In this document: positions 61,998 to 64,000 of the stretch, piece by piece | How the letters are laid out: each line of letters opens with the position of its first letter | How positions within the stretch are numbered: the first letter of the stretch is position 1 | Notes under the pieces: generated by a model | The model's database searches: none | What the model saw: only the letters and a program-made list of their open reading frames with translations | Told to the model about the DNA's origin: nothing | NCBI RefSeq assembly: GCF_000504205.1 | Contig: NZ_AZAJ01000001.1 | Location: 2,888,879 to 2,952,878, forward strand | Reading direction: 5' to 3' | DNA from: Methanolobus tindarius DSM 2278 | Lineage (GTDB): Archaea; Halobacteriota; Methanosarcinia; Methanosarcinales; Methanosarcinaceae | Length of the DNA: 64,000 nucleotides | Made by a program: the position numbers and the translations under genes

Positions 61998-62411
61998 TTA
62001 AAATGAATTCCTGAGCTGTTCGGCAAGTTCAGCAAGGTTGTCAGTGGATGGATGTAATTCCACGATTGTGTGCATATTACCTTCCCCGTCACCTGCACGT
62101 CTGGGGATTATGTGAACGTGCACATGCGGTACGGTTTGTCCGGCAATCTCTCCGTTGTTGATGCCAATATTCATGCCTTCAAGTCCAAGTGTCTCTGAAA
62201 CAGTTTTTGCTATCCTGTTCACAGAAGCAAACAATGTAGCAGCATCTTCCTCACTCATGTCAGTGAATTTCCCAAAATGCTTTTTCGGAAGCACAATAGT
62301 GTGTCCCTCTGCACAGGGATAGATATCCAGAAACGCATAAACATTCTCGTCTTCATAGACCTTATGTGAAGGAATAGCACCGGCAACAATCTTACAGAAT
62401 AGACAATCCAT
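61998..62411 (-). CDS. HIT family nucleotide hydrolase
   Basis: 137 residues from ATG 62411, preferred over a GTG at 62420 because GAGGGTGAT precedes it. Zinc-type CLFC at residues 3-6, the conserved EGHTIVLPKKH, and the histidine triad HVHVH (96-100) are present. It should hydrolyse adenylated nucleotides (Hint type, AMP-lysine or aminoacyl-AMP). It stands alone, with a short leader. Confidence 0.93.
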   Translation of the reverse strand: MDCLFCKIVAGAIPSHKVYEDENVYAFLDIYPCAEGHTIVLPKKHFGKFTDMSEEDAATLFASVNRIAKTVSETLGLEGMNIGINNGEIAGQTVPHVHVHIIPRRAGDGEGNMHTIVELHPSTDNLAELAEQLRNSF

Positions 62412-62513
62412 ATGTATCACCCTCTTTCTTTGAGGGTTTGGGTATTTAATTATTGTTGTTGGGAAGTATTACTTTAAGGAAAGTCAATCCATTTTAATTA
62501 ATAATATTAGGTT

Positions 62514-63971
62514 CTAGATTAAATCGCAATTAGCTTTGTAATTTACAATTCTTGCGGTAAAACCGGATGTAGGAAGTGACATTGACTTTGCAGAATTTAT
62601 GTTATATTCACATTTATCGCTCAGCTCATGATATGGGATAAAGTTAACAACAATTTTGTCAATAAATGATGAATCTGAAACATTAATTTCTTTTGAATTA
62701 CTTCCAACTATACCACAAACCCATCCTCCATATTCTTTATGTGGATTATCAATAATGAATGCCTCACAATTAACCTTAGAATTGATTATTTTAGTTTTAA
62801 GTAATGGCTTGAAAGGTTCATAAAACAAGTGTGTTTTCTGGAAATATTCAAAGAAATCAGTATACTTTTTCGTATCAAAAGGCATTTTTTTGAAAATGAA
62901 GCCAATATTAACCCTACCAACAATGACAGAATCTTCTTTTTTTGTTACTTTGCTTGGTTGACATCCTATGAAAAAAATACCATCTTTCCATTCATCAATA
63001 AAATAGGCAATTTCATGATGAGGGATTTTCTCACCACGAAGCTTCAAATCTTTATACCTATGATATTGGTCTTTGATTGCAGTAATAAAATTTAAAGGTC
63101 CATAACCAAACCAACTACAAGTTTCCTGATTAATACTAAAAGCGGACACACGATGATGATTTGCAAAAAATGTAGAATAATATCTTTTAATAACAGACTC
63201 GAGATTATCAATGTGTAAAGAGTCTTCATAATGTTGCAGATAAACTGTATTTTCATATTCTTCATGAATTATATTTGCATAGATTATACATTCTGAATTA
63301 ATGGATTTTGAACTTAAATAAGGAATCTTCTGACCACTTTCAATCAATATGTATTTGTTATTTTCTTCATTGAGAATCTCATTTGTATTTATAAATTCAT
63401 TTTCAATAATATCATTACTACTTTCCAGATTTATATGATGATTACTTGTTTCTTTTTTCGAAAAAGGATTTGGACCTAGAGGTGGTATGTCATTTATCTT
63501 TTTTTGATATAGTGCATGTACTAATGCTTTTAAATTATCTTCAAACTTTCTTTCTTCCAAAAAAGAGATATATTTTTTTCCTGCCAGATACTCAGGAATA
63601 GAATTATCTATATTTCCAGATTTTATTATTGGTATGTATTTAACTTTACGTAAATGCTTATGAATGTTCCCTGTTATGATGGAGTTTTCGTAGCCAACTC
63701 CTCCTTCCCTGTTGTTAGCTTTTTTTGTATAATTTGGTGTAAGAACGATGACCACATAATCGCAATTTCTAATGGATTCTTCCATAAAAAGATGCAAATC
63801 TTCTCCAGCTTGCAAATGCCATTCATCTAGCGTTACTTTGATACCATTAGATTGAAGTTTAGAAGCTAGATACATGACCCATTTTTTGTGTTCTTCATTG
63901 TCCCATGAATAACTAATAAAGCATGTAGGATTGTTTTCCTCATTAGTATCGCTTTTTAGGTTAACCATCAT
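62514..63971 (-). CDS. SEFIR-domain protein with uncharacterised C-terminal domain
   Basis: 485 residues, no signal peptide or membrane helix. Residues about 14-165 are a SEFIR (TIR-like) domain: TCFISYSWDNEEHKKWV, LDEWHLQAGEDLH, CDYVVIVLTPNYTKKA and GGVGYENSIITGNI, where E95 is a candidate catalytic glutamate. A polar linker leads to residues about 205-485, which I cannot assign (NHHRVSAFSINQETCSWFGY, GWVCGIVGS). Bacterial SEFIR proteins deplete NAD upon phage infection, so this could be a defence protein with a C-terminal sensor (inference). The gene is visibly AT-richer than its neighbours, suggesting transfer. No clear ribosome site; the ATG-ATG start is 29 bases from the window end, so a partner gene could lie outside. 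Confidence 0.82.
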   Translation of the reverse strand: MMVNLKSDTNEENNPTCFISYSWDNEEHKKWVMYLASKLQSNGIKVTLDEWHLQAGEDLHLFMEESIRNCDYVVIVLTPNYTKKANNREGGVGYENSIITGNIHKHLRKVKYIPIIKSGNIDNSIPEYLAGKKYISFLEERKFEDNLKALVHALYQKKINDIPPLGPNPFSKKETSNHHINLESSNDIIENEFINTNEILNEENNKYILIESGQKIPYLSSKSINSECIIYANIIHEEYENTVYLQHYEDSLHIDNLESVIKRYYSTFFANHHRVSAFSINQETCSWFGYGPLNFITAIKDQYHRYKDLKLRGEKIPHHEIAYFIDEWKDGIFFIGCQPSKVTKKEDSVIVGRVNIGFIFKKMPFDTKKYTDFFEYFQKTHLFYEPFKPLLKTKIINSKVNCEAFIIDNPHKEYGGWVCGIVGSNSKEINVSDSSFIDKIVVNFIPYHELSDKCEYNINSAKSMSLPTSGFTARIVNYKANCDLI

Positions 63972-64000
63972 TAAGTAATGTATTACATTTTTTGATATTA

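Follow-up and report, generated by a model that had tools for sequence, protein, structure and literature searches.

SEFIR proteins act in defence by depleting NAD+ (PMC11084316, PMC12774641, PMC12322248). Reviews and defence surveys place SEFIR and TIR together as NADase-type domains (PMC12774641, PMC12322248), and within the STIR clan SEFIR forms the outgroup of the TIR domains (PMC13142454). The portal is the trigger both of Swarozyc, in which DUF4062 is a TIR-like NADase responding to the phage portal (PMC13174449), and of SpbK, a TIR NADase (PMC12847820). In pAgo systems, the effectors include TIR, Mrr-type, SEFIR and Schlafen/AlbA_2 domains (PMC2743648, PMC6299218).

In this study, we analyzed a SEFIR gene of the methanogen Methanolobus tindarius, whose product ends in a module of about 290 residues that is found in other archaea behind other N-terminal domains. 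SEFIR defence is known, and so are SEFIR genes in methanogens; what is new is the swappable C-terminal module.

The window, i.e. the whole stretch of 64,000 nucleotides that was analyzed, corresponds to positions 2888879-2952878 of G000, a 3.15 Mb genome consisting of one contig. The gene and its parts are listed in Table 1. An earlier, sequence-only reading of this DNA had described an N-terminal SEFIR domain with a GGVGYE motif, an unrecognised C-terminal part and an AT-rich gene, and on these three points we agree with it. First, Pfam recognises the N-terminal domain both as SEFIR (PF08357, E 6.8e-15, residues 17-128, 56.1 bits against a cut-off of 23) and as TIR_2 (E 2.5e-21, residues 18-151, above cut-off). 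In a sequence search, the best PDB matches are 5y8e and 5y8f, the two solved prokaryotic SEFIR domains (E 2e-27, residues 15-136), and the predicted model of the protein, with a pLDDT of about 58-92 across residues 11-150, matches 5y8e in Foldseek (E 4.9e-10). The GGVGYE motif spans residues 90-95. In an alignment that takes in bacterial SEFIR proteins and one TIR homologue (A5), Glu95 is invariant in 8 of the 8 aligned SEFIR/TIR proteins, and its column aligns with the glutamate of the TIR protein, i.e. with the TIR catalytic position.

Second, the module, searched alone as the last 290 residues or so, belongs to no family in Pfam, PADLOC, PHROGs or NCBIfam, and has no match among PDB chains, PDB profile searches included. 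A model of it built from a two-sequence alignment reached a pLDDT of 43, with a best Foldseek match at E 8e-3 and a TM-score of about 0.2, and we set it aside. Third, the GC content of the gene is 29.8%, versus 38.6% for the window. The orthologue in a second genome of the genus (G022) has the same start, and an inverted repeat located just 5' of the start codon is kept in both; it is possibly a promoter or operator element.

Table 1. Position of the SEFIR-module gene, its parts and its flanking features (window numbering).
Feature	Position	Strand	Basis
Whole SEFIR-module gene	62514..63971	-	Complete ORF, 485 aa, ATG start; 80% identical orthologue in G022, same site
SEFIR domain, predicted effector of NADase type, residues ~15-155	63507..63929	-	Pfam, PDB 5y8e/5y8f, Foldseek of the model
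Glu95 codon in GGVGYE, predicted catalytic glutamate	63687..63689	-	Position; invariant column in alignment A5
Linker, residues ~156-195	63387..63506	-	Low-confidence model stretch between SEFIR match and module
C-terminal module, residues ~196-485, predicted sensor	62517..63386	-	Alignments A1, A2 and A4; genome searches; fusions; tree
WFGYGPLNF, most conserved module motif, residues 287-295	63087..63113	-	13-module alignment; G000 versus G022
Inverted repeat ATATTAG-TTTTT-CTAATAT, start	63995..64000, on to ~64013 past the window		G000 and upstream of the G022 orthologue (L005)
HIT-family gene downstream, conserved flank of the insertion	61998..62420	-	26 of 27 genus genomes

The sequence-only reading had proposed a SEFIR effector-type protein, probably antiviral, and had named a conserved housekeeping location as one of the observations that would speak against it. 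Such a location is not what we found. The gene is present in two of the 27 genus genomes (G000 and G022) and absent from the other 25, and the HIT gene that flanks it occurs in 26, of which 24 are without the SEFIR gene. The SEFIR gene is inserted singly between neighbours that are otherwise conserved. At the empty site, G005 and G020 have a histidine kinase immediately after the HIT gene, and G008 has the hypothetical gene and SfsA there. As the SEFIR gene alone is present or absent amid conserved neighbours, we consider its position a variable spot rather than a housekeeping one.

No defence-like gene adjoins it on either side. Partner genes had been suggested as a possibility past position 64000, which did not hold: of 35 kb fetched there, the first 20 kb were inspected for genes and contain no defence partner. 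They begin with a same-strand PAS histidine kinase (Pfam); a VWA-type protein and SfsA, both named by eye, come next. On the other side, the HIT gene matches the PADLOC ThsC2 model with 61.3 bits, though it is found genus-wide. A Thoeris-like partnership with a HIT-type ThsC was rejected because the HIT gene is conserved in the 24 genus genomes that have it without SEFIR; a genus-wide gene matching ThsC2 calls for caution in automatic defence annotation. Further away and outside the window (genome positions about 2957901-2961388), a radical-SAM gene (L002:7902-9281, minus strand) overlaps with its start the end of a thermolysin-like protease gene (L002:9278-11389, minus strand; names by eye). 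C-P-P-[AS]-P units are repeated in a tail of this protease, and one member of the pair might be an enzyme that modifies the other.

The sequence-only reading went too far on one further point, the novelty of a SEFIR protein in an archaeal methanogen as such. SEFIR domains are found in 17 of 238 Methanosarcinia genomes, and the window protein scores 232.7 bits against the PADLOC bSEFIR model (PDLC03957), the match covering positions 37-351 of the 412 in the model and the C-terminal part alone giving no match. In the open-licence literature, we found no description of an archaeal SEFIR protein or of the C-terminal module. Among the 17 genomes, the module is present in only three: G000, G022 and G042 (Methanococcoides alaskense), where the gene is interrupted by a stop. 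This broken relative (L007:7557-8480) has an additional N-terminal stretch of about 130 residues, absent from the window protein.

Genome searches using alignments A1, A2 and A4 detected the module, fragments counted, in 12 of 238 Methanosarcinia genomes, 12 of 195 haloarchaea genomes and 13 of 394 genomes sampled from the phylum. In bacteria, a search run without a positive control found it in none of the 547 genomes sampled (297 of Bacteroidota, 250 of Bacillota). Plasmids, phages and IMG/VR gave no match with the window or methanogen module as query; with a haloarchaeal module as query, two haloarchaeal plasmids were matched. A profile of the nine methanosarcinial modules alone still detects the haloarchaeal modules among 1258 ORFs (E about 2e-5 to 6e-21). 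Over 13 modules, W287, G289 and F295 of the WFGYGPLNF motif are invariant or nearly so.

Five types of N-terminal domain precede the module according to Pfam: SEFIR, TIR_2, DUF4062, Mrr_cat and SLFN_AlbA_2. TIR_2 is found in a Methanoperedens MAG and DUF4062 in the relative from G173, and G022 has, besides the 80% identical orthologue, a second module protein with an SLFN_AlbA_2 N-terminus. Several haloarchaeal module proteins have a short N-terminus that looks ribbon-helix-helix-like by eye, and one copy, in G079, is stand-alone, without any fused domain. On the maximum-likelihood tree of 17 modules, at least seven changes of N-terminal type are needed, the minimum possible being five. AlbA_2 requires three of them and TIR two, and these counts are the same on the well-supported branches alone. 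The AlbA_2 protein of G446 clusters with two TIR proteins, and both SEFIR modules are closest to the TIR module of Methanoperedens. With at least seven changes on the module tree, we conclude that the N-terminal domain has been replaced repeatedly while the module was retained.

The two parts of the protein diverge at different rates. Between G000 and G022, identity is 92% for the SEFIR domain and 74.5% for the module (Fisher p 4e-6). The dN values are respectively 0.034 and 0.131, an approximately 4-fold difference, and dN/dS is 0.11 for SEFIR and 0.31 for the module, versus 0.04-0.06 for three neighbour genes. Within the module, residues 271-330 are at least 90% identical, most other stretches being 53-77% identical. 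This pattern, taken from one genome pair and not indicative of positive selection, would fit a conserved scaffold with fast-changing surfaces; relaxed constraint on the module can also account for the contrast in rate.

We examined the genes around the relatives. The second copy of G022 has pVip together with VakA and a TPR protein, as well as HEC-01, in its vicinity; the copy of G051 is near GajA/GajB (Gabija) and pVip, and that of G300 near a CBASS cyclase, a 2TM effector and TGT. On a Halobacterium hubeiense plasmid, HamA/HamB (Hachiman) precede the module gene, and the stand-alone gene of G079 is near Abi_alpha and an integrase. PADLOC signals were weak or absent at the loci of G1102 and G454, and the G173 locus, judged by reading ORFs only, showed a weak defence signal or none. 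These observations concern the loci of relatives and come without a formal background rate, so that they are not an enrichment test. The two AlbA_2-module genes of the family, in G022 (L106) and G051 (L107), belong to different genera and have different further defence genes around them, but each has a viperin (pVip) gene at a distance of less than 7 kb. The stand-alone module gene of G079 lies, with the integrase and Abi_alpha, in an element (L108:10359-15555) that also has a run of small membrane and ATPase-like genes, recognised by eye, possibly what is left of a provirus or plasmid.

Broken or fragmentary module copies are found in M. alaskense, G043, G181, G183 and G520, and as a split gene in H. 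hubeiense; some of the fragments sit at contig ends. Two stretches of G026 (L020 and L022), identical over 3.18 kb, each contain a short fragment of the N-terminal end of the module next to a transposase-like gene; the fragment may have been copied along with an insertion element.

An alternative is a role outside antiviral defence, with the module as a regulatory domain that binds a ligand or protein and serves, for example, in the response to stress, in controlling mobile elements or in maintaining an element in the manner of a toxin. The ribbon-helix-helix-like (by eye) and AlbA_2 fusions do resemble nucleic-acid-binding regulators, and some module copies adjoin integrases or sit on plasmids. 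However, no recurrent antitoxin-like partner was seen at the loci examined, and neighbours such as viperin, Gabija, CBASS and Hachiman, together with frequent decay, fit defence better. We regard this regulatory role as unlikely.

We favour instead, with a probability of roughly 0.6, the view that the window gene encodes a single-gene, probably abortive, antiviral receptor, whose module senses infection and releases the SEFIR NADase. The module would recognise something that betrays infection, a viral protein or complex being the likeliest candidate, and this binding would cluster the N-terminal SEFIR domains. Once clustered, these would hydrolyse NAD+ via Glu95, and the loss of NAD+ would arrest or kill the infected cell prior to virus release. 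In the other archaeal fusions, the module would be a portable sensor joined to TIR or DUF4062, both NADase-type, to an Mrr-type nuclease or to AlbA_2.

The enzymatic step of this scheme could be dispensed with if the SEFIR domain were a non-catalytic adaptor or scaffold, as in animal IL-17 signalling, relaying the signal with no NAD+ hydrolysis. Animal SEFIR domains signal through assembly, which favours such an arrangement. The outgroup position of SEFIR relative to TIR in the STIR clan (PMC13142454) is also in its favour. On the other hand, Glu95 is invariant among archaeal and bacterial relatives, TIR and DUF4062, both of NADase type (PMC13174449), are joined to the same module, and a nearby downstream partner gene is absent. 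An adaptor function is in our opinion rather improbable.

Finally, as the effector set of the module overlaps the domains associated with pAgo and APAZ (PMC2743648, PMC6299218), and the total protein length is similar, we tested whether the module is a divergent APAZ and the protein a SEFIR-APAZ subunit that would handle guide and target nucleic acids together with a pAgo. In Foldseek, the predicted model aligns over its full length to TIR-APAZ chains of SPARTA, at E-values between 1.2e-5 and 5e-4, which might suggest so, but in these matches the TIR part alone is superposable (rmsd about 26 Å, TM-score 0.25). We consider this very unlikely, since hhalign gave the module a probability of 0.1% against a shallow APAZ profile, built from the SPARTA chains and a Rhizobium plasmid TIR-APAZ, versus 96.8% for a SEFIR/TIR positive control; the PDB profile search had no match although the PDB includes SPARTA chains; and the search for Piwi was negative in 11 of the 12 module genomes, G000 included, and among the neighbours of the window gene, divergent short pAgos being able to escape this search.

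The receptor reading can be extended to all module proteins. They would then form an undescribed family of modular immune receptors of archaea, restricted to Halobacteriota in our limited samples, with a sensor of about 290 residues and at least five kinds of N-terminal domain, each fusion being a one-gene abortive defence directed at archaeal viruses and all of them sensing a related viral feature. To this broader proposal we would give about even odds. To our knowledge, few antiviral effectors of methanogens and haloarchaea have been characterised, and no archaeal TIR-type protein has a known trigger. Should one viral feature set off all the fusions, a single screen for escape mutants would reveal what these archaea sense, and the module would be a marker for further archaeal defence genes.

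Among known systems, bSEFIR is a single gene with a SEFIR domain and a conserved glutamate, and the N-terminal half of the window protein drives the match to it, whereas the module matches neither bSEFIR nor any other PADLOC model. Of five bacterial SEFIR relatives that were fetched, four have a C-terminal SEFIR domain behind another domain and one an unrelated C-terminus; none has the module. Swarozyc is alike on paper, being a single gene with an NADase-type domain and a C-terminal sensor, and the G173 relative even combines DUF4062 with the module. However, the auxiliary domain of Swarozyc is an HTH/winged fold binding the portal (PMC13174449), and the window protein is SEFIR/TIR_2 by Pfam, without DUF4062. 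SpbK and other single-gene TIR NADase receptors likewise join a TIR-family NADase-type domain to a recognition part and are triggered by a phage protein (PMC12847820), but they are bacterial, and their C-terminal domain differs from the module. In SPARTA and other APAZ-effector systems, proteins of similar length share one C-terminal domain common to TIR, nuclease and other effectors; the window protein differs in having no Argonaute partner found and no sequence similarity to APAZ. If our proposal is true, the module family would be an archaeal counterpart to the effector swapping of bacterial receptors and of pAgo/APAZ systems.
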